Shown here: positions 1-9,801 of the stretch, piece by piece
Layout: each line of letters opens with the position of its first letter
How positions within the stretch are numbered: position 1 is the stretch's first letter
From: Bacteroidales bacterium
GTDB taxonomy: Bacteria; Bacteroidota; Bacteroidia; Bacteroidales; UBA932
Assembly: GCA_017538685.1 (NCBI GenBank)
Contig: JAFYIK010000264.1
Span: forward strand, 1-9,801
Direction of reading: 5' to 3'
DNA length: 9,801 nt
The notes under the pieces: model-generated
Seen by the model: the letters and a program-made list of their open reading frames with translations, nothing else
What the model was told of the DNA's origin: nothing
Database searches by the model: none
Translations under genes and position numbers: made by a program

Positions 1-768
1 ATCGAAGTGGACCAGGCGCCGATCGGGCACAGCCCGCGGTCGAATCCCGCGACCTTCACCGGCGTCTTCGGCGATATCCGCGCGCTCTTCGAGCAGACGC
101 CGGACGCCAAGGTCCGCGGATTCAAGGCGGGCCGCTTCTCCTTCAATGTGGAAGGCGGACGCTGCGAGGCCTGCAAGGGCGCCGGAGTGAAGATAATCGA
201 GATGAACTTCCTCCCGCCCGTGGCCGTGGTCTGCGACGAATGCGCGGGAAAGCGTTATAAGGAAGACACTCTGGCCGTCAGGTATAAGGGCAAGAATATC
301 AACGACGTGCTGGAGATGCAGGTGAGCGAGGCGTATGAATTCTTTAAATCCAACCCGAAGATAGCGCCCAAGCTCAAGGCCTTGCTCGATGTGGGCCTCG
401 GGTACATACGCCTCGGCCAGTCGAGCCTCACCCTTTCGGGCGGCGAAAGCCAGAGAATGAAACTCGCGGCCGAACTTTACCGGAAGAGCACGGGCAACAC
501 CCTTTATGTTCTCGACGAGCCCACCACCGGTCTTCATTCGGAAGACATCAAGACCTTGATGGGAGTGATGCACAAACTGGTGGACCAGGGCAATACCGTG
601 ATAATAATCGAACACAACCTGGACGTGCTGAAGAGCGTGGACTGGATAATAGATATGGGCCCCGAAGGCGGCCGCAGGGGAGGTGAGATAGTCGCTCAAG
701 GCACGCCCGAAGAACTGGCTGATGACCCGAAATCCGTCACTGGCCGCTACCTTAAGGAAGAATTATGA
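1..768 (+). CDS. uvrA: UvrA excinuclease ABC subunit A, C-terminal part (5' end outside window)
   Basis: DNA-damage recognition ATPase of nucleotide excision repair, which as a dimer loads UvrB at lesions in the cytoplasm. Only the last 255 residues are present; the reading frame is open from base 1, so the real start lies upstream. In fragment numbering, the C-terminal zinc finger is seen as Cys55-x2-Cys58, 19 residues, then Cys78-x2-Cys81, the spacing usual for UvrA. The second ATPase domain follows: ABC signature LSGGESQ (145-151), Walker [13 protein letters not shown] with Asp172 and Glu173, and the H-loop histidine His205 in IIEHN. The C-terminus ends in the usual [12 protein letters not shown] tail. 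The TGA stop overlaps the next start codon as ATGA, suggesting co-transcription with the DUF6377-type gene. Bacteroidetes may carry more than one UvrA-like protein, so a paralogue cannot be excluded from this portion; the UvrA family call itself is secure. Confidence 0.96.
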
Positions 769-2252
769 TAAAGACACTCATTATACTTGCCGCACTTGCG
801 GGCTTCGACATCCAGGCTGACCTTCAGCGGCTGGACGAAACCCTGGATAAAGCGGCCGAGTACGCAGCCGCGCACGAGCGCCGGATGCAGGCCGTCGAAC
901 ACGACCTTACTTCCGACCGCCCTCTGACGGACGAATTCCGTTACGAGGTCTATGGCCAGGTTTATGAGCTCGCTTATGCGTTCCAGTATGACCGCGCCCT
1001 CGAGGCTTTGGACAATCAGGAGCAGGTGGCCGTGAGGATGGGGCGCAAGGATCTTGTTATCGAGACCCGCCTTCGCAAGGCCCTGCTGCATTGCGTCGCC
1101 GGAAGGTATGCGGAAAGTATGGCGGTGGCGGAGACCATAGACACGACAAAGTTCACGTCGGACAGGCAACTCTTCCAGTGGTTCGAGTATCAGCAGCGCT
1201 TCTGCCGCGACTTCCGTGAATACAACCACCCCGGGGTGGGCGGCGAGCTGGACGAACGAGCCGGTTTCTACCGCGGACGGCTGATCGAGTATCTGCCAGA
1301 ATCGGACTTCCTGCGCCAGACTATGCTCCTTACGGAGCTTATCGAGAACGGCGACCATATCGGAGCCGGCGAGGTGGGCAATATGATGCTCTCGCGCTAT
1401 CCGGAAGACAGCCACGAATATGCAATCGCGGCCTACTATATGGGCGTGCTCTGCCGCGAGGACGGCGACCGCGAAGGCGAGGTGCACTGGTACATCAAGT
1501 CTGCTATAGCGGACCTTTGCAGCGCCACCAAAGACAACGCTTCGCTCTATTGCGTCGCGCTCAACATTATGGACAGGGACATTGCCCGCGCTTTCCGTTA
1601 CACGCAGGCCGCTCTGGACGATGCCCTCTTCTACAACTCCAAGCTTCGCCCCGGGCAGATTGCCCAGAACCTCCCCGCAATCGAGAAGGCCTACACGGAT
1701 ATGATCAGGAAGGAGTCTGACAGGCGCACGATGCTGATGCTCCTTATCTCCCTGCTGGTCGTGGTGCTGGTGTTCATCCTTCTGAGGATGATAAGCTACC
1801 ACCGCAGGTTGAGGGAGGCTATCGTCGCATTGTCGGAGGCCAACGCCGCAAAGGAGGAATTCCTCGCGTTGTTCTTGTCGATGAGTTCCGGTTATCTCGA
1901 CAAGCTTCGCAAGCATCTCGGCCGCGAGCAGATGGAGGATGAGCTGAATGCCTTCTACGCCGCGTTCGACAACGCCTTCCTCCAGCTCTATCCGGCGTTC
2001 GTCGAAGACTTCAACTCCCTGCTCGAGCCGGAGGCCCGCGTCGAACTCAAGAAGGGGGAGAAGCTGAACACGCAGCTTCGTATCTTTGCCCTCATCAGGC
2101 TCGGAGTGGATCAGTCGGCGCACATCGCTTCGCTGCTGCGTTACTCCGTGAACACCATATATAATTACAGGGCGCAGACCAAAGCCGCAGCCCTGAGCGG
2201 TAAAGAAGACTTCGAAGAGAGGGTGAAGACCATCGGAATTCGCCACAATTAG
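765..2252 (+). CDS. DUF6377-type membrane-bound predicted transcriptional regulator
   Basis: A 495-residue protein whose architecture matches the DUF6377 family of Bacteroidetes, usually annotated as regulators near SusC/SusD loci; this assignment is from recall of the family. It has a short hydrophobic N-terminus (residues 1-13, possible cleavage after Ala18), then a charged helix starting [15 protein letters not shown] that is typical of the family. A long alpha-helical, TPR-like region follows to about residue 320, then one transmembrane segment at 323-342 followed by a basic stretch (SYHRRLREA) and a helical, probably coiled-coil region. The C-terminal helix-turn-helix lies at about 434-476, with [14 protein letters not shown] and then [14 protein letters not shown] as recognition helix. 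Inferred topology is periplasmic sensor and cytoplasmic DNA-binding end. It overlaps uvrA by 4 bases, with AAGGAAG at 754-760 as a possible ribosome site, and ends 148 bases before susC in the same direction. No kinase or receiver domain is seen. The ligand and target promoter are not shown by sequence. Confidence 0.85.
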
Positions 2253-2286
2253 TCCACTTTTTACAAGAGCTAAATATCTGAAAGTC

Positions 2287-2318
2287 AGACGCTTGAATAT
2301 TCAGGCGTCTACTTTTTT
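2287..2318 (+). terminator. Rho-independent terminator after the DUF6377-type gene
   Basis: The stem starts AGACGC at 2287-2292 and closes with GCGTCT at 2305-2310. A T-G wobble and three more pairs (TGA/TCA) extend it inward to a 4-base ATAT loop, giving about 10 pairs with no mismatch. A run of six T residues follows at 2313-2318. It lies 34 bases after the DUF6377-type stop and ahead of the susC promoter, so it should separate the uvrA-regulator transcript from the PUL operon. Confidence 0.85.
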
Positions 2319-2363
2319 ACTCCCGCGCGTATTTACTATGGTCTGCGGCAATTTTTAATTACT

Positions 2364-2371
2364 TAATTTTG
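2364..2371 (+). promoter_or_regulatory. Probable Bacteroidetes sigma-ABfr -7 element for the susC operon
   Basis: TAATTTTG matches the Bacteroidetes -7 consensus TAnnTTTG exactly and lies in the AT-rich stretch between the terminator and susC. Transcription would start near 2377-2380, giving a leader of only about 20-25 bases that is A/T-rich and has no Shine-Dalgarno sequence. The matching -33 TTTG box is poor: the best candidate is TCTG at 2342-2345 with an 18-base spacer. A weak -33 box would fit a promoter that needs an activator, but that is inference. Confidence 0.55.
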
Positions 2372-2400
2372 CCACACAATATTTCGTAAATTTTTTAGAA

Positions 2401-5400
2401 ATGAAGAACCTGTTCAATCGAATCGCCCTTGTCTTTGCGGCACTGTTCCTGAGCGTGGCCCCGGCTTTCGCTCAGCAGGCGAAAGGCAAAGTACAGGACC
2501 GTGACGGTCTGCCGGTAATCGGCGCCGCCGTCGTGGTTCAGGGCACTTCAAACGGCACGACTACCGGCCTCGACGGCGAGTGGGAGCTTTCAGGCGTGAA
2601 AGCCGGCTCCATCCTCGTGATTTCCTCGATCGGTTATGTGACCAAGACTGTCAGCGCAGCCGACGCAGCCCTCGTCATCCTCGAAGAGGACACCATTATG
2701 CTTGAAGACGTGGTGGTCGTAGGTTACGGCGTGCAGAAGAAGAGCGTGGTGACGGCAGCCATCGCGAAAGTGGGATCGGACGAACTTGGCAAGACCGCTC
2801 CCGTCCGCGTGGACAACGCCCTTAAGGGCCTTGCCGCCGGCGTCAACGTCACTTCCTCCTCCGGCCAGCCTGGCGCAGCGGCCCGCATCAGGGTCCGCGG
2901 TACCGGCACCATCAACAACTCCGACCCTCTCTACATCGTGGACGGAATGCCTATCGAAGGCGGTATCGACTACCTCAACCCTTCGGACATCGAGTCCATC
3001 GAGGTGCTGAAGGACGCGGCTTCCGGAGCAGTCTATGGAGCCCGTGCGGCCAACGGCGTCATCCTCGTGACCACCAAGAGGGGCACGAAGGGCGAAGCGC
3101 GCGTGAACTATGATTTCTCCTACGGTCTCTCGAGCCCGTGGAAGAAACTGGACGTGCTGGACGCTTCGCAGTATGCGATGATGCTCAACGAAGGTATGAT
3201 GAATGCCGGAATGGCCCCGAAGTACTCTTTCGACTATGCCAGCTACGGCAAGGGTACTGATTGGCAGGATGAGATATTCTACTACAACGCTCCCCAGAGC
3301 CAGCACGAACTGAGCGTGAGCGGCGCTACCGACAAGGTGAACTACTACCTTTCGCTGGGCTACCTCAGCCAGGACGGTATCATCGGAGGTAACGTGGGCC
3401 GTTCGAACTACGACCGTCTGACCCTCCGCAGCAACACCACCTACGAGGTGATGGACAAGACTGCGGGAAGGAGCTTCCTGAACAAGTTCACGCTCGGCAG
3501 CAACCTCTCGTACGCGTACATTAAATCTACGGGCATCAGCACCAACAGCACCTGGGGCTCGCCCCTCGGTTCTGCCGTGGCCCTTTCGCCTATCCTGAAC
3601 GTGTATGCAGACGACACCGAGGCTGCGAAGCAGATCGGCAGCTACGGCGCGGCCGGAATGCTCTACGGCGAGAACGGCCAGATGTACACCGTCCCCGGTG
3701 GATCCTACAATGAAATGGTCAACCCCGTGGCGGCCCTTTCGCTGCCCGGCACCGTGGGCTGGAGCCATAAATTCGTGGGCGGCTTCAGCGGCGAGCTGCA
3801 GATAATCGAAGGCCTCAAGCTGCGCAGCGCCCTCGGCATCGACCTCTCCTTCTGGGGCGACGACGGCTATCAGGACGTCTACTACCTCAGCAGCAGCCAG
3901 CAGATCACCGAATCCTACGCTTCTTCGAACGCCTGCCACTCGATGGTCTGGCAGGTGGAGAACACCCTTACTTATTCCAAGACCTTCGGCGACCACAGCA
4001 TCACCGCCCTCCTCGGCCAGTCGGCCAAGGCTTCGGACGGCGCATATCTCGGCGCATCGTCGAAGTTCCTCAAGGACATCAACAAACCTTATATCGACTA
4101 CACCAACGGCCTTCAGGCCGACGGCGACCGCAACGGCTGGGGAGCTCCCTACGCACAGGCCAAGCTCGCTTCGTACTTCGCCCGTCTGAGCTACAACTAC
4201 GCAGAGCGCTATATGGCCGAGGTCACTGTCCGCCGTGACGGTTCTTCCCGCTTCGGCGCGAACAACCATTGGGCCACCTTCCCGTCCGTCTCCCTCGGAT
4301 GGAACCTCTTCAAGGAGGACTTTATGCAGGGCGTCATCCCTTCGCTCAGCAATGCGAAGGTCCGCGCTTCCTGGGGTCAGAACGGAAACGAGAACATCGG
4401 TAACTTCCGTTACACCGTCCTCACAGAGGGTAACAACAACTATATATTCGGGACAGACGAGTCCGAGGCGGTCGGCGTGAAGTCCGGCGGTCTCGCGAAC
4501 CAGAGCCTCCGCTGGGAAGCCAGCACCCAGACCGACATAGGTCTTGACCTCGGCTTCTTTGCAAACAAGTTCACCGTCACCGTGGACTACTACAACAAGC
4601 TCACCGACGGTATGCTTATGACTATGCCTATTCCTTCCTATGTGGGCGAGAGCAAGCCTGTCGGAAACGTAGGACGTATGAGCAACAGCGGTATCGAGTT
4701 CGAACTCGGTTACAAGTACACCGTGGGCGACTGGAACTTCAAGGTGAATGCAAACGCCACCTATCTGAAGAACCTCCTCATCGAGTACGGTAACGACACC
4801 GGCTGGGCAAACTACGACTCCTTCCAGGGAACGGGCACCATCTCCCGCGCGGAGAACGGCTATCCTTTCCCGTTCTTCTACGGTTACCGGACCGACGGCA
4901 TCTTCCAGAACGAAGGCGAGATAGCCGCCTACACCTGGACTGATCCCGAGACTGGCGTGACCAGCCCTATCCAGCCCAAGGCCAAGCCCGGCGACGTCCG
5001 CTTCAAGGATCTCAACAACAACGGCAAGATCGACGACGACGACCGCACCTACATAGGCAAGGGAACTCCGGACTGGACCTTCGGACTTAATTTCCAGGCG
5101 GCGTGGAAGAACTTCGACTTCTCTATGCTTGTCCAGGGTGTCGCTGGCGTGCAGGTGTTCGACTGCACCCGCCGTACGGACATTTCCTCGGTCAACCTTC
5201 CGTCCTATATGCTCGGCAGGTGGACGGGCGAGGGCACATCCGACAAATATCCCCGTTTCGTGCTGGGCGACAACTCGAACTGGCAGTCTTCCGACCTCTA
5301 TGTCTACGACGGTTCATACGTCCGCGTGAAGAACATCCAGCTGGGTTACACCCTGCCTGAATCGCTCGTACGCAAGGCTCTCATTTCCGACGTCCGCGTC

Positions 5401-5547
5401 TATGTGGCCGCAGAGAACCTCTTCACCCTCACTCCTTACCACGGATTCGATCCTGAAATCGCATCCGGCGGCACTTCCCTCGGAATCGACTACGGTGTTT
5501 ACCCTCAGGCACGCACCTTCACCGCAGGCGTAAGCGTTGCATTTTAA
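2401..5547 (+). CDS. susC: SusC/RagA-family TonB-linked outer membrane importer
   Basis: A 1,048-residue outer-membrane transporter that, capped by SusD, imports oligosaccharides into the periplasm using TonB/proton-motive energy. It shows a Sec signal peptide ending in APAFA (cleavage after about residue 25). An N-terminal carboxypeptidase-regulatory-like beta domain (about 27-95) follows, then the TonB-box-like EDVVVVGYG at 102-110. The plug domain includes PLYIVDGMP (176-184) and the highly characteristic VLKDAASGAVYGARAANGV (202-220). The rest is a beta-barrel with the family motif NGNENIGN (661-668), a calcium-loop-like DLNNNGKIDDDD (870-881), and a C-terminal Phe expected for BAM recognition. 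Length is normal for the family and I see no frameshift. It is the first gene of the operon, with susD 18 bases downstream. Substrate cannot be read from SusC itself; the GH16 gene suggests a beta-glucan. The symbol marks the family, not starch specificity. Confidence 0.97.
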   Translation: MKNLFNRIALVFAALFLSVAPAFAQQAKGKVQDRDGLPVIGAAVVVQGTSNGTTTGLDGEWELSGVKAGSILVISSIGYVTKTVSAADAALVILEEDTIMLEDVVVVGYGVQKKSVVTAAIAKVGSDELGKTAPVRVDNALKGLAAGVNVTSSSGQPGAAARIRVRGTGTINNSDPLYIVDGMPIEGGIDYLNPSDIESIEVLKDAASGAVYGARAANGVILVTTKRGTKGEARVNYDFSYGLSSPWKKLDVLDASQYAMMLNEGMMNAGMAPKYSFDYASYGKGTDWQDEIFYYNAPQSQHELSVSGATDKVNYYLSLGYLSQDGIIGGNVGRSNYDRLTLRSNTTYEVMDKTAGRSFLNKFTLGSNLSYAYIKSTGISTNSTWGSPLGSAVALSPILNVYADDTEAAKQIGSYGAAGMLYGENGQMYTVPGGSYNEMVNPVAALSLPGTVGWSHKFVGGFSGELQIIEGLKLRSALGIDLSFWGDDGYQDVYYLSSSQQITESYASSNACHSMVWQVENTLTYSKTFGDHSITALLGQSAKASDGAYLGASSKFLKDINKPYIDYTNGLQADGDRNGWGAPYAQAKLASYFARLSYNYAERYMAEVTVRRDGSSRFGANNHWATFPSVSLGWNLFKEDFMQGVIPSLSNAKVRASWGQNGNENIGNFRYTVLTEGNNNYIFGTDESEAVGVKSGGLANQSLRWEASTQTDIGLDLGFFANKFTVTVDYYNKLTDGMLMTMPIPSYVGESKPVGNVGRMSNSGIEFELGYKYTVGDWNFKVNANATYLKNLLIEYGNDTGWANYDSFQGTGTISRAENGYPFPFFYGYRTDGIFQNEGEIAAYTWTDPETGVTSPIQPKAKPGDVRFKDLNNNGKIDDDDRTYIGKGTPDWTFGLNFQAAWKNFDFSMLVQGVAGVQVFDCTRRTDISSVNLPSYMLGRWTGEGTSDKYPRFVLGDNSNWQSSDLYVYDGSYVRVKNIQLGYTLPESLVRKALISDVRVYVAAENLFTLTPYHGFDPEIASGGTSLGIDYGVYPQARTFTAGVSVAF

Positions 5548-5551
5548 TTAC

Positions 5552-5557
5552 GGGAGG
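5552..5557 (+). promoter_or_regulatory. Strong Shine-Dalgarno-like site before susD
   Basis: GGGAGG sits 8 bases ahead of the susD ATG at 5566, inside the 18-base gap after the susC stop. It is a near-perfect anti-16S match. The two other starts that follow an intergenic gap in this operon or its leader (susC and the binding protein) have AT-rich upstream sequence with no such site, as is common in Bacteroidetes. It supports the 5566 start for susD. Confidence 0.65.
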
Positions 5558-5565
5558 ACACAGTT

Positions 5566-7077
5566 ATGAAACACAGCAACATTCTTTCAATTATAGCTCT
5601 CGGTTCGGTTCTCTTCGCTTCCTGCGGAGACGACTTCCTCACGGTGGACAACCCCACCGCCCAGCCTATCGAAGAATACTTCACCACGGCGGACCATCTC
5701 GGCGAAGCCTTGGTGGCGGCCTATGCGCCTCTTCATTGGACGGACTGGTCGATGGGTCAGTACAACCCCATCCTTATAATGAGCGACATTATGGCGGACC
5801 AGATCTGGGTCGGCGGACAAGACCAGACCGACAATGCATTCTGGCACCTTATGATGAACTACTCCGCCCTTCCTACCAACTGTATGACTTCCATCTGGAC
5901 GGACGGCTATTCCGGAGTCAAGAGGTGCAACGACCTCATACTCTACACAGGCTGGACCAAGGCGGCGGGAGAGATCGACGACGCCGAAGAGGCCTGGTAT
6001 CTCGAGCAGGCCAAACTTCTCAGGGTTTACTACTACAGCTGGCTTTGGAAGTTCTGGGGCAACATAGTCTACTATGAGAAGAACCTCGAAGCCCCTTATA
6101 TCGGCACCCAGTACACTGCAGACGAAGTTTACGCGAAGATGATGGCAGACCTCGAGGGCGCCATCTCACTCGGCGTGCTTCCGATGAGGCAGCCTGATGC
6201 GAAGGCCGGTTATCTCACCACGGCGTTCGCCTATATGCTCTATGCCGAGCTGGTGATGTACCAGAAGGACGCATCCCGCTACGACACCGCCCTTGGATAT
6301 ATGAAGGAGATCATCAATGACGGCGGCTACGACCTCGTGGACGACTACGGCACCATCTTCCATCCCACTGGAGAGTGGAGCAAGGAATCCATCTTCGAAA
6401 TCACCCACAAAGCCGACGGCCAGGTCCGTTCCTACGACAACGTCCTCGCCGCTGGCGGCACCATCCTGCCGCAGCTTATCGGTCCCTACAATATGACCGA
6501 AGGCGCCGACGACCACAAAGCCGGCTGGGGCTTCGCTCCCGTGCGCGCTGAGACGTATGCTATGTACGACGCTTCCGACGCCCGCCGTGCAGCCACCTGC
6601 TACGACGCCACCGTCAACACCTACGAGCCCCGCTACCAGGACACCGGCTACTTCCTCGAGAAGTATCAGGGAAGCCAGGCCGAGTATGCCACGGGCGACG
6701 GAGCTCCGGATATGCGCTTCGGCAACAACCTGCGCATCTACCGCTTTTCCGAGACCCTTCTCAACGCGGCTGAACTCGCCCTCGCGAGCGACCCGACCAA
6801 CGCGAAGATCTGGCTCAACAAGGTGCACAACCGTGCCGGCCTTACCGACACGCTGGACGCAACTCTCGACAACATAAAGAACGAGCGCAAGCTCGAGTTC
6901 GTGGGCGAAGGCAAGCGCTACTGGGACCTCATCCGCTGGGGTGACGCACCCACCGTGCTCGTTCCGGATGCCTATGGCTACCGTACCAACACCTGGTCTG
7001 AGAGCAAGAAGTATCTCCCCATTCCCCAGAGCGAGATCGACGCGGCCCAGGGCACCCTTAAACAGAACAACTACTAA
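5566..7077 (+). CDS. susD: SusD/RagB-family surface glycan-binding lipoprotein
   Basis: A 503-residue alpha-helical lipoprotein that forms the hinged lid of the SusC barrel and binds glycan at the cell surface. A lipoprotein signal ends LFASC with Cys20 as the lipidated residue. Gly-Asp-Asp follows, fitting the acidic surface-export signal of Bacteroidetes lipoproteins. The SusD N-terminal region begins with FLTVDNP (24-30), and its helices carry many aromatics (for example YYYSWLWKFWG). The C-terminal hallmarks are the NERKLEFVGEGKRYWDLIRWG block (439-459) and YLPIPQSEID (483-492), followed by the usual Gln-Asn-rich end. Length is normal. It is the second gene of the operon, with a strong ribosome site before it and only 23 bases between its stop and the next start. 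The binding substrate is inferred from neighbours, not from residues visible here. Confidence 0.97.
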   Translation: MKHSNILSIIALGSVLFASCGDDFLTVDNPTAQPIEEYFTTADHLGEALVAAYAPLHWTDWSMGQYNPILIMSDIMADQIWVGGQDQTDNAFWHLMMNYSALPTNCMTSIWTDGYSGVKRCNDLILYTGWTKAAGEIDDAEEAWYLEQAKLLRVYYYSWLWKFWGNIVYYEKNLEAPYIGTQYTADEVYAKMMADLEGAISLGVLPMRQPDAKAGYLTTAFAYMLYAELVMYQKDASRYDTALGYMKEIINDGGYDLVDDYGTIFHPTGEWSKESIFEITHKADGQVRSYDNVLAAGGTILPQLIGPYNMTEGADDHKAGWGFAPVRAETYAMYDASDARRAATCYDATVNTYEPRYQDTGYFLEKYQGSQAEYATGDGAPDMRFGNNLRIYRFSETLLNAAELALASDPTNAKIWLNKVHNRAGLTDTLDATLDNIKNERKLEFVGEGKRYWDLIRWGDAPTVLVPDAYGYRTNTWSESKKYLPIPQSEIDAAQGTLKQNNY

Positions 7078-7100
7078 CAACTAATTTTTATAATCACACA

Positions 7101-8534
7101 ATGAAAAAGTTTTTTGCAATTCTGAGCATCGCAGCGCTTGTTTTTGCTGCTTGCGAGCCTAACAACAACACCGATGAGCCTCAGCTCCCTTCAGCAGCTG
7201 GTCTTACCCCTGTTGTGACTGTGGACGGCAATCTTGCCACCTTCTCTCTTCCTGAAGGCGCCACCGGACTCATTCCCATCTGGTACACCAACGAAAGCGG
7301 CGACTTCGTGTTCGCCGGCAACGGAAACAACTTCCAGAAGACTTTCTTCGAGGGCGGTACCTTCAAGGTACGTATGTATGTGAGCAACTCCAACGGCCAG
7401 TCGAAGGACTATGCCGAGGCTGAGTTCACGGTCGAAGGCCAGGAAGGCTGGAACGGCTACAACTACAACTCACAGTACAACATTTGGAAAGTCGGTGAGG
7501 ATGCAGGTATGGAAGGCAGCTACACTTGGTGCAGCCCGGGTTGGGCCGGCGAGGTCTCCGTACCTTTCACCACCAATCCTTACACCCTTACCGTCCCCGG
7601 CGCCTGCTCTGACCGCTGGCAGTGCCAGTTCCATCTCGTACCTGGCGCAAACGTGGCTCTTTCCGCAGACAAGCACTACGATTTCTCCTGCATTATCGAG
7701 CTGACCAAGTCCGCAGGTGTCACCGTCAAGATCACCGATGTGGCAAGCGATGACAACTTCCTCTTCGTCACCCTCGACGATATGCCTGCCGGAGAGAATG
7801 TGTATTGGATGAAGGATGTCGCCGGTATCGACGCTTCCGCAGTGAAGGTTGTCTTCGACTTCGGTTACAGCGAGGCCGGCAACGATGTCAAGATCACCCG
7901 CATCACCCTTAAGGACCACGCCAACGACGACGGCACCAACGCTCCGGACAAGGATACACCCGAACCGGAACCGCAGCCCGAGGTGACACAGCTTCCCGAA
8001 GGATATGTGTTCAACACCAACACTTCCGCAAACCTCTGGAAGGCAGTTGCCGATGCAAATGGCGAGAAGTACTTCTACTACTTCTGCAATGGCGGCGATT
8101 GGAACGGTACCGAGACTGAGACCACCGATGTTCCTTTCCTCGTAAAGAACGCCAACTCTTATCAGATCACTATCGAGAATGCGACTGCTTCACAGTGGCA
8201 GAACCAGTTCTTTATCTGGCCCAACGAGGGTAGCTTCATCGCTCTTAGCGACGCGAAGAAATATGCCCTCCAGGTCAAGCTTTCCGCAAGCGTGAACACT
8301 CCTGGCTTCTTCAAGATCGAGCAGTATGCGGCAGGCGGCCCCAAGCACGAGGGCGCTACCATCTGGGAGTACGGCGCATACACGATCACCGCAGGTGAGG
8401 ATCTGGTGCTCACTTCTCCTGTCATCTCCGGTGTCGCTTGCGACAACGTCAACCTCATCTTCGACTTCGGAGGAAATGCAGCAGGTGCAGTCGTCACCAT
8501 CAAGGACATCTGCCTCCAGGAGTTCACTGAGTAA
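7101..8534 (+). CDS. Surface glycan-binding lipoprotein (SGBP/SusE-F position) with tandem CBM-like domains
   Basis: A 477-residue lipoprotein without recognisable catalytic residues, in the position where PULs usually encode a SusE/F-like or SGBP protein. The signal peptide ends VFAAC with Cys18 lipidated, followed by Glu and Asn-rich sequence. Residues about 31-113 look like a PKD/Ig-like beta domain (for example FEGGTFKVRMYVSNSNG). Two similar beta-sandwich domains follow, about 116-272 and 300-476, joined by a Pro/Glu/Asp-rich linker (about 273-298). Matching landmarks are NIWK/NLWK (Trp129, Trp313), a Cys-x3/4-Trp pair (Cys144/Trp148, Cys329/Trp334), RWQCQF/QWQNQF (Trp173, Trp366), and VVFDFG/LIFDFG near the domain ends. 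The repeated Trp and aromatic residues suit carbohydrate binding, and the fold is probably CBM4/9-like, but the exact family is not settled. It starts 23 bases after susD and is followed 5 bases later by the GH16 gene. It is probably exposed at the outer surface and binds the GH16 substrate. Confidence 0.82.
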   Translation: MKKFFAILSIAALVFAACEPNNNTDEPQLPSAAGLTPVVTVDGNLATFSLPEGATGLIPIWYTNESGDFVFAGNGNNFQKTFFEGGTFKVRMYVSNSNGQSKDYAEAEFTVEGQEGWNGYNYNSQYNIWKVGEDAGMEGSYTWCSPGWAGEVSVPFTTNPYTLTVPGACSDRWQCQFHLVPGANVALSADKHYDFSCIIELTKSAGVTVKITDVASDDNFLFVTLDDMPAGENVYWMKDVAGIDASAVKVVFDFGYSEAGNDVKITRITLKDHANDDGTNAPDKDTPEPEPQPEVTQLPEGYVFNTNTSANLWKAVADANGEKYFYYFCNGGDWNGTETETTDVPFLVKNANSYQITIENATASQWQNQFFIWPNEGSFIALSDAKKYALQVKLSASVNTPGFFKIEQYAAGGPKHEGATIWEYGAYTITAGEDLVLTSPVISGVACDNVNLIFDFGGNAAGAVVTIKDICLQEFTE

Positions 8535-8539
8535 ACAAT

Positions 8540-9634
8540 ATGAAGATAATTCGGACTTTGTCTTTACTTCTGATCATACTTCTCACCGCCTTGTGCAATC
8601 CGGCCCCGGATCAGCCGGTCGAGAACAGTATTGCATTCACCCCCGACTCGCTCATCTTCGAGCAGCCGGGAGGTGAACTGCAGTTCTATGTGACGTCCTC
8701 GGCTCCCGGAATCGCGCTCTACAGCGACGATGACTGGGTGGTCAGTATCGAGCCTCCGTATTCGGCGATGACCGAGGGGACTTTCACCGTGAAGGTAAAG
8801 GCCAACAACACCACCAGGGAGCGAGTGGGCAAGGTAGGGATCAATGTCGGACAGACAAGGCGCTATCTGCCCATACGTCAGCCCGGTCTTGACCCGGTCG
8901 CGGCGGGTATCGACACCCCGGAGGGCTATACCCTCGTGTGGAACGACGAATTCGACTACGACGGACTGCCCGCGTCTGCCGAATGGAAGTACCAGACAGG
9001 CGACGGCGGCTGGGGTAACCACGAACTTCAGGACTATGTGTCCGGATCCTATAACGGCGTGAACATCGCCGACGTGTCCGACGGCACCCTGAAAGTGTGG
9101 GCGAAGAAGATCGACGGAAAGGTGCGTTCAGTGCGCCTCAACACCCGCAAGAGCTGGACCTACGGCTATATCGAAGCCTCCATCAAGCTCCCCGTGGGCA
9201 AGGGCACCTGGCCTGCTTTCTGGATGATGCCGTCCAACTTCACCGGCTGGCCTAAAGACGGCGAGATCGACATTATGGAGGAGGTGGGCTATCATCCCAA
9301 CTACTGCAGCGCCACCATCCATTGCAACCGCTACAACAACGGTGGTACGAGCATCGAGCACGCCGAGAAGTATATCGCCACCGGCCAGACCGATTTCCAT
9401 ATCTATGGAATGGAGTGGACGGCCGACTACATTACCTTCTATCAGGACAGGAAGGCTATCCTCACCTATAAGAACAGCGGTGCCGGTCACGATTCGTGGC
9501 CGTTCTACAAGCCGTTCTACATTATCCTCAACCTCGCCTGGGGAGGCGACTGGGGCGGCGCTCAGGGCGTCGACGAGTCGTGCTTGCCGACGGCGATGGA
9601 GGTGGATTGGGTGAGAGTGTTTCAGAAATTCTGA
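8540..9634 (+). CDS. BACON-GH16 lipoprotein, endo-beta-glucanase (laminarinase/lichenase-like)
   Basis: A 364-residue predicted endo-acting glycoside hydrolase, probably attached to the outer membrane. The lipoprotein signal ends LLTALC with Cys19. A BACON domain follows at about 31-116, with a central DDWV and FTVKVKANNTTRERVGKV as in the family. The GH16 catalytic domain spans about 130-364, starting LVWNDEFDYDG. The active-site motif EIDIMEE contains the expected nucleophile Glu242, Asp244 and acid/base Glu247. The spacing E-x-D-x-x-E is the beta-bulge form of laminarinases and bacterial lichenases, as opposed to the E-x-D-x-E form of XTH-type enzymes. Supporting motifs are WPAFWMMP (224-231), YGMEWTADYITFYQD and LNLAWGGDWGG, with the C-terminal VDWVRVFQKF typical of GH16_3. 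Substrate is therefore likely beta-1,3- or mixed beta-1,3/1,4-glucan; agarase or carrageenase use is less likely on these motifs. It is the last gene of the operon, 5 bases after the binding-protein gene, and its end overlaps a convergent gene. Confidence 0.93.
   Translation: MKIIRTLSLLLIILLTALCNPAPDQPVENSIAFTPDSLIFEQPGGELQFYVTSSAPGIALYSDDDWVVSIEPPYSAMTEGTFTVKVKANNTTRERVGKVGINVGQTRRYLPIRQPGLDPVAAGIDTPEGYTLVWNDEFDYDGLPASAEWKYQTGDGGWGNHELQDYVSGSYNGVNIADVSDGTLKVWAKKIDGKVRSVRLNTRKSWTYGYIEASIKLPVGKGTWPAFWMMPSNFTGWPKDGEIDIMEEVGYHPNYCSATIHCNRYNNGGTSIEHAEKYIATGQTDFHIYGMEWTADYITFYQDRKAILTYKNSGAGHDSWPFYKPFYIILNLAWGGDWGGAQGVDESCLPTAMEVDWVRVFQKF
9622..9634. repeat. 13-bp inverted repeat shared by two convergent stop codons
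   Basis: TCAGAAATTCTGA is a perfect inverted repeat (six-base arms around a central A). It is exactly the overlap between the GH16 gene, whose TGA is 9632-9634, and the minus-strand MBL gene, whose TGA is 9624-9622. Both proteins therefore end in near-identical codons, Gln-Lys-Phe and Gln-Asn-Phe. No T-run or longer stem is present, so I do not call it a terminator. Confidence 0.7.
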
Positions 9635-9801
9635 TCCTCGTTCTCCCAAGGCTCGTTGAAGGGCTGGAGAAAAGGATTGTTTGTCCGCTCATCCGAAATC
9701 GATGAGGCTGGGCCGTGACCGGGGTAAATCTCCACGTCGCCGTCCAGCCCCATTATTTTGTCCATTACGGAGACTATCAGGGAGTCGTAGTCCCCGCCGG
9801 G
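9622..9801 (-). CDS. Metallo-beta-lactamase-fold hydrolase, C-terminal fragment (glyoxalase II / YcbL-like)
   Basis: An open frame runs on the minus strand from the window edge to a TGA at 9624-9622, giving 59 residues with no start codon in view because the gene begins beyond base 9801. The fragment begins PGGDYDSL and contains IYPGHGPASSISDERTNNPF. The block PGHGP-x-(T/S)-x-I-x-x-E-(R)-x-x-NPF is the hallmark C-terminal region of single-domain MBL-fold hydrolases related to glyoxalase II (YcbL type). The His of GHG (codon 9717-9715) is a conserved metal ligand. Such proteins hydrolyse thioesters or related compounds in the cytoplasm; the substrate here is unknown. The tail after NPF (about 16 residues, ending ENEDQNF) is acidic. 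It is convergent with the GH16 gene and shares its last 13 bases, so it is not part of the PUL operon. Confidence 0.88.
   Translation of the reverse strand, partial: PGGDYDSLIVSVMDKIMGLDGDVEIYPGHGPASSISDERTNNPFLQPFNEPWENEDQNF

Follow-up and report, generated by a model that had tools for sequence, protein, structure and literature searches.

Complete absence of CATG from a polysaccharide-utilisation locus of an uncultured Bacteroidales bacterium points to avoidance of a Type II restriction site

The window analysed here is the 9,801-nucleotide stretch at positions 1 to 9,801 (forward strand) of contig JAFYIK010000264.1, which belongs to the assembly GCA_017538685.1 of an uncultured Bacteroidales bacterium. 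The palindromic tetranucleotide CATG does not occur in it: the exact count was 0 over 1..9801, which holds for both strands as the word is palindromic. This absence is genuine and strong, and a CATG-cutting enzyme is the best reading of its cause; the avoidance has most likely been driven by a CATG-specific orthodox Type II restriction-modification system, present or recently lost. Dinucleotide shuffling of the window (200 shuffles) gave an expectation of 32.8 copies (standard deviation 5.6), the order-1 Markov simulations (n = 1,000) had a mean of 33.1 and a minimum of 18, and the product of the CAT and ATG counts divided by that of AT yielded 31.1. The palindrome is strongly under-represented at an expected count exceeding 15 (0 versus 31–33), and by our own arithmetic the 95% upper bound for a zero count corresponds to about 0.10 of the expectation. 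The sequence-only reading, from which this work started, had claimed the total absence of CATG by inspecting about 135 plus-strand ATGs and finding none after C, and the exact counts bear this out: there are 136 such ATGs, preceded by A in 25, G in 47, T in 64 and C in 0 cases. The other palindromes said to be present occur as well (GATC 32, GGCC 66, CCGG 65, TCGA 81, GTAC 31 and AATT 20 copies), GTAC at a normal observed/expected ratio (O/E) of 0.91.

The avoidance is imprinted on the codon choice of the genes. As had been proposed from inspection, Ile-Met pairs use ATT or ATA (ATT, ATT, ATA, ATT and ATT; ATC 0/5), while ATC makes up 111/158 of the Ile codons elsewhere, and the Tyr codon preceding Met is TAT in 5/5 cases compared with 65/172 elsewhere. 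More generally, C precedes none of the 65 ATG codons, while it precedes 408 of the 772 other codons starting with A, and His before a codon starting with G is encoded by CAC in 10/10 cases, compared with 16/29 elsewhere. Synonymous-codon shuffling within the genes predicted about 31 CATG sites, distributed over the three codon phases as 4.2 for CAT-G, 2.5 for NCA-TG and 24.8 for NNC-ATG (the hyphen marks the codon boundary), and the observed numbers were 0/0/0, that is, all three phases are empty.

The closest relative found with DNA is a stretch from a yak-rumen Bacteroidales metagenome-assembled genome (L001, genome G001), which aligns across the whole window at 78.6–78.8% DNA identity. Protein identity over six genes is 82% (2,586/3,138), and where A, G, P, T or V is conserved, the two sequences use the same codon in 440 of the 899 cases, thus the synonymous sites have largely been turned over. 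CATG is at its expected level in L001 (90 versus 92), just as in 140 kb of G001 (618 versus 613; O/E 0.98–1.01). The aligned region of L001 contains 44 CATG sites, and the window has CATG at none of them, although the median conservation between the two sequences is 39% for tetranucleotides with more than 10 sites. Where the amino acid is conserved and A follows, a third-position C was kept in 0/19 cases before ATG versus 205/274 before other codons starting with A (P = 2.7e-11). Composition and codon usage are therefore insufficient to account for the absence, as both the synonymous shuffle and this matched codon control indicate. Since the sister has CATG at full expectation, we infer from these alignments that the loss took place on the window's branch, probably after the split from this relative of 79% identity.

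An origin by chance, or a spurious signal caused by base composition, codon usage or faulty assembly, could appeal to the window being only 9.8 kb long and, as it seems, an entire contig. Nevertheless, this explanation is refuted by the shuffled expectation and its spread, by the lowest simulated count (18 in 1,000 runs) and by the codon control, while the reading frames are open, their order follows that of L001 and the same pattern is repeated in other assemblies.

The outcomes at the 44 L001 sites, 43 of which lie in aligned codons and could be assigned to a phase, bear on a mutational origin, in which a methylated C in CATG was deaminated (C to T). The 32 NNC-ATG sites became TATG in 20, AATG in four and GATG in one case, and seven carried several changes; the seven CAT-G sites turned into CACG (three), CACA, CATC, CATA and GGCC, and the four NCA-TG sites into CCTG, TGTT, CTTG and CGTG. 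The 20 TATG and the single CATA are the products that deamination would leave, and T was found among the changed third-position Cs before ATG in 16/19 cases versus 31/69 in controls (P = 0.0035, in a test not stratified by amino acid), which speaks for deamination and against selection by a restriction enzyme, even though the amino acids with a twofold C/T choice may explain this enrichment. However, deamination would be limited to changes from C to T or from G to A and would spare sites where these alter the protein, and it is disfavoured by the phase-specific escape: CAT-G and NCA-TG are as empty as NNC-ATG, AATG and GATG occur among the products, and A or T was altered in eight of the 11 CAT-G and NCA-TG outcomes (nine if GGCC is counted). 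The losses were not confined to C to T and G to A, as a 5-methylcytosine hotspot would demand, thus this origin is highly improbable. Escape routes that differ by codon phase argue for selection against CATG rather than for one mutation bias.

According to the restriction explanation, a CATG-cutting orthodox Type II restriction-modification system would have been resident in the lineage for long, and it could either persist or have disappeared not long ago. Wherever CATG was incompletely methylated, the host DNA would now and then be cut by its own enzyme, which would make each site slightly harmful, so that synonymous changes removing CATG would be favoured until none were left in these genes.

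Other relatives were surveyed by counting GCATGC, in 393 genomes at the order level and 249 at the family level, and CATG was then counted directly in stretches of 4–200 kb. Among the 24 readable relatives, which were mostly picked for low GCATGC and whose O/E comes from sampled stretches, 13 had a value of 0.07 or less (G664, G702, G461, G657, G695, G714, G733, G557, G680, G616, G517, G713 and G431; that of G733 derives from 4.3 kb only), and 11 of the 13 stay there once the stretches with restriction genes are included. The longest record is that of G616, with 17 CATG versus 989 expected across 420 kb of continuous sequence (about 2%), although another region of it is richer (10 versus 57 and 14 versus 47, in two stretches overlapping by 3 kb). 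G461 had 0/80 in one stretch and 10/142 with a second one added. Intermediate values were found in the family for G514 and G084 (both 0.16) and for G540 and G575 (both 0.45). Purging is a minority state, since 20 genomes taken at even intervals from the family, 18 of which could be scored, had a median O/E of 0.78 and a range of 0.16–1.39, with none at 0.07 or below. The hexamer proved to be an imperfect proxy, because GCATGC is rare in G209 and G311 while CATG is only mildly low there by direct count (47/53, 46/64 and 48/64), and G571 is not depleted (52/48); G741 is partly so (0.56). The set of 22 GCATGC-"depleted" genomes used in the enzyme-family searches described below accordingly includes false members.

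Other relatives have emptied other 4-bp palindromes: GGCC is at 0.02–0.03 in G530 (L245) and G535 (L246), GATC at 0.07 in G555 (L250), or up to 0.11 with G605 (L260) included, CCGG at 0.09 in G122 (L231), ACGT at 0.14 in G585 (L256) and AGCT at 0.14 in G431 (L053). Such a pattern fits restriction, and together with the normal CATG content of G001 it makes the avoidance lineage specific. A further tetranucleotide, CTAG, also has a count of 0 in the window, yet only 6.4 copies are expected; G001 also has few copies of it (O/E 0.15), as does the evenly spaced family sample (median 0.17), and its shortage is not specific to the CATG finding. The two avoidances are separable, as G664 (L193, L194 and L222) has a single CATG versus 65 expected in about 25 kb and CTAG at 0.73.

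The search for a responsible enzyme centred on PF05315, the NlaIII/IceA family, whose specificity is for CATG. It was found above the cut-off in one of the 393 order-level genomes, G431, with sub-cutoff matches in G253 and G312, and G431 ranks lowest for the GCATGC count as well as for the ratio (10 versus a control of 275, by reading of the table). Its NlaIII-family gene is flanked by those of a 259-amino-acid methyltransferase and a 334-amino-acid D12 methyltransferase, with Pfam matches at 1e-114 for ICEA and 1e-52 for D12; a D12 methyltransferase of G461, which adjoins a Dam-like methyltransferase, is 29% identical to that of G431. A CATG cutter is favoured because this NlaIII carrier is the lowest in GCATGC and because relatives avoid other Type II words. 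PF05315 was found in none of the 14 control genomes, and the G431 match shows that the search works.

Several results weigh against this explanation. No restriction gene was recognised among the six main proteins of the window, from which the ICEA domain (PF05315) is absent, and the sister genome G001 has no PF05315 match either. Only one of the 11 relatives at an O/E of 0.07 or less that were searched (G733 and G557 not included) contains the NlaIII family. Matches above the cut-off numbered one in 42 and one in 393 genomes, therefore NlaIII as a general cause in the relatives is not supported. Nor was any common methyltransferase family found: PF02086, PF01555, PF07669 and PF00145 (42 genomes each) and PF02384 (38 genomes) were searched, and none is shared by the purged genomes. 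G616, with its 2.18-Mb contig and an O/E of 0.017–0.07, has no above-cutoff D12, N6_N4 or C5 methyltransferase, and its Eco57I and N6_Mtase matches correspond to PrmC (by reading of L139) and to a weak 915-amino-acid island protein; none of the six families searched was found in G702. The emptiness is not uniform either, since adding the stretches near restriction genes raises the counts of G517 (from 0/52 to 39/227, O/E 0.17) and G695 (from 1/50 to 8/77, O/E 0.10). The claim of long-term selection made by the sequence-only reading is supported, given the empty codon phases and the matched codons, while the CATG cutter that it proposed as the cause is favoured but has an NlaIII-family counterpart in one of 11 purged relatives.

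Other candidates were followed and set aside. The weak Eco57I matches in G616 and G695 were read as PrmC, and that in G741 resembles a tRNA/rRNA-type methyltransferase. A three-gene system with similarity to Type IIG is present in the purged G517, G657 and G461 (stretches L182 7783–12887, L185 2872–7777 and L186 7758–12638) and consists of an MmeI-like methyltransferase part (213–220 amino acids), an Eco57I methyltransferase of 501–510 amino acids, whose reading frame is broken in L185, and a GIY-YIG/ResIII protein (855–971 amino acids). Matches to it occur in 22 of the 249 family-level genomes, and long ones also in several that are unpurged as judged by their GCATGC count, such as G074, G043, G686 and G727, thus this Eco57I/GIY-YIG/helicase system is probably not the enforcer. 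In G713 and G657, where GATC is at 0.33–0.37, methyltransferases stand beside a 285-amino-acid protein, presumably as a DpnII-like pair; many members of the family are poor in GATC (median 0.41), and this putative pair therefore adds little. Two further arrangements were seen in G209 (L187 8153–10287 and L188 8949–10753): a 470-amino-acid Eco57I-type methyltransferase stands beside a 235-amino-acid protein without Pfam or PADLOC match, and an N6/N4 methyltransferase accompanies a Tsp45I-type endonuclease (PF06300).

To reconcile a CATG cutter with these gaps, it must be invoked that the enzyme of most purged relatives and of the window's organism has been lost, was missed in incomplete assemblies or is of an unrecognised kind; recent arrival of the gene is a further way that has to be invoked. 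Loss is a sub-case of the restriction explanation, according to which the avoidance is the fading trace of a CATG system that is gone, and it predicts that neither the methylation nor the enzyme exists today. It is supported by the lack of NlaIII in 10 of the 11 purged relatives searched, by the lack of a shared methyltransferase family and by the intermediate O/E values (0.16 in G514 and G084, 0.45 in G540 and G575), which decay would yield, and traces of lost systems are described in the available part of PMC4687349. On the other hand, the window is at exactly zero, so that a loss could only have happened recently. We regard a system already lost as possible but not the likelier state of affairs.

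Somewhat less likely still is that CATG is kept out of the genomes of this bacterial family by a restriction or defence enzyme that is specific for the word but belongs neither to NlaIII nor to the common methyltransferase families. Near-zero CATG indeed recurs in relatives with neither an NlaIII match nor a shared methyltransferase family, and a precedent exists in UpaP162 of Ureaplasma, which cuts CATG and which, as far as the accessible part of that report goes, its authors matched to no known enzyme (PMC6191088). No candidate gene was found in these searches, however, the three-gene system being a doubtful enforcer; mobile islands can be missed in fragmented assemblies. A bolder version appears improbable: an unrecognised CATG enzyme of this kind in this family of gut Bacteroidales would have repeatedly driven CATG near zero over long parts of the chromosome, as in the 420 kb of G616, and self would be marked largely by the absence of the word instead of its methylation.

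The window itself is an ordinary polysaccharide-utilisation locus, and all of its main genes lie on the plus strand and lack CATG. The first (7..768) is the 3′ part of what we take, from its sequence, to be a UvrA-like excinuclease gene; Pfam gave only a sub-threshold ABC_tran match, and a longer homologue lies at L001 7218–9944. It is followed by a DUF6377 protein, a SusR-like regulator of glycan utilisation (765..2252; sub-cutoff NCBIfam match), and by a SusC/RagA TonB-linked outer-membrane protein (2401..5547) and a SusD-like outer-membrane lipoprotein (5566..7077). A 477-amino-acid protein of the same locus (7101..8534) matched neither Pfam nor NCBIfam at E 0.001, and an open reading frame of 484 amino acids occupies the equivalent position in L001; in the window it lies between SusD and the last gene, which encodes a glycoside hydrolase of family GH16 (8540..9634). 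The SusC gene had no match in a phage collection. The 495-amino-acid protein of the window showed 48% identity to Candidatus Cryptobacteroides and 88% to Bacteroidales metagenome-assembled genomes among the matches listed.

Avoidance of this kind is already known; what makes the present case interesting is how complete it is, how it contrasts with the sister and that it recurs, mostly with no NlaIII alongside. A word missing from coding DNA tells which restriction enzymes have accompanied a lineage, and this can be read even where one contig is all that represents an uncultured organism. The near-complete record gives the search for CATG systems a definite object, and the case is suited to timing the erasure of a taboo word. 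If restriction is still active, CATG-bearing phages and plasmids are predicted to be restricted by these hosts.

Avoidance of Type II restriction sites in host genomes was reportedly described by Gelfand and Koonin in 1997. According to the portion of Rusinov et al. (2015; PMC4687349) available, orthodox Type II systems cause site avoidance, which can outlast the loss of the system; avoidance without a system in the genome is often the trace of a lost one, and the cut-off for under-representation is 0.78. Our case resembles those in that a 4-bp palindromic Type II site was purged in a lineage-specific manner, sometimes without a matching system, and differs in its degree, since the window (O/E of 0) and 13 sampled relatives (at most 0.07) are far under the cut-off given in that portion, although the measures differ. 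Among the matches listed from an open-licence literature library, none dealt with the avoidance of CATG by these bacteria, which is not proof of absence. Compared with NlaIII/IceA-type enzymes (PF05315), the specificity for CATG would match, and the sole above-cutoff carrier among 393 genomes is the most GCATGC-depleted one, but the family is found neither in the window proteins nor in 10 of the 11 searched relatives at an O/E of 0.07 or less. For one strain of Helicobacter pylori, CATG is listed as a plausible taboo word in the text seen of PMC7560954. Helicobacter and Campylobacter avoid GTAC, in connection with the PabI family of base-excision restriction enzymes, in the part of PMC10273834 at hand. 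Although both the word and the enzyme class are different and GTAC is at 0.91 in the window, the two cases are alike as examples of the long-term purge of one 4-bp palindrome, which that part attributes to a toxic resident restriction enzyme.

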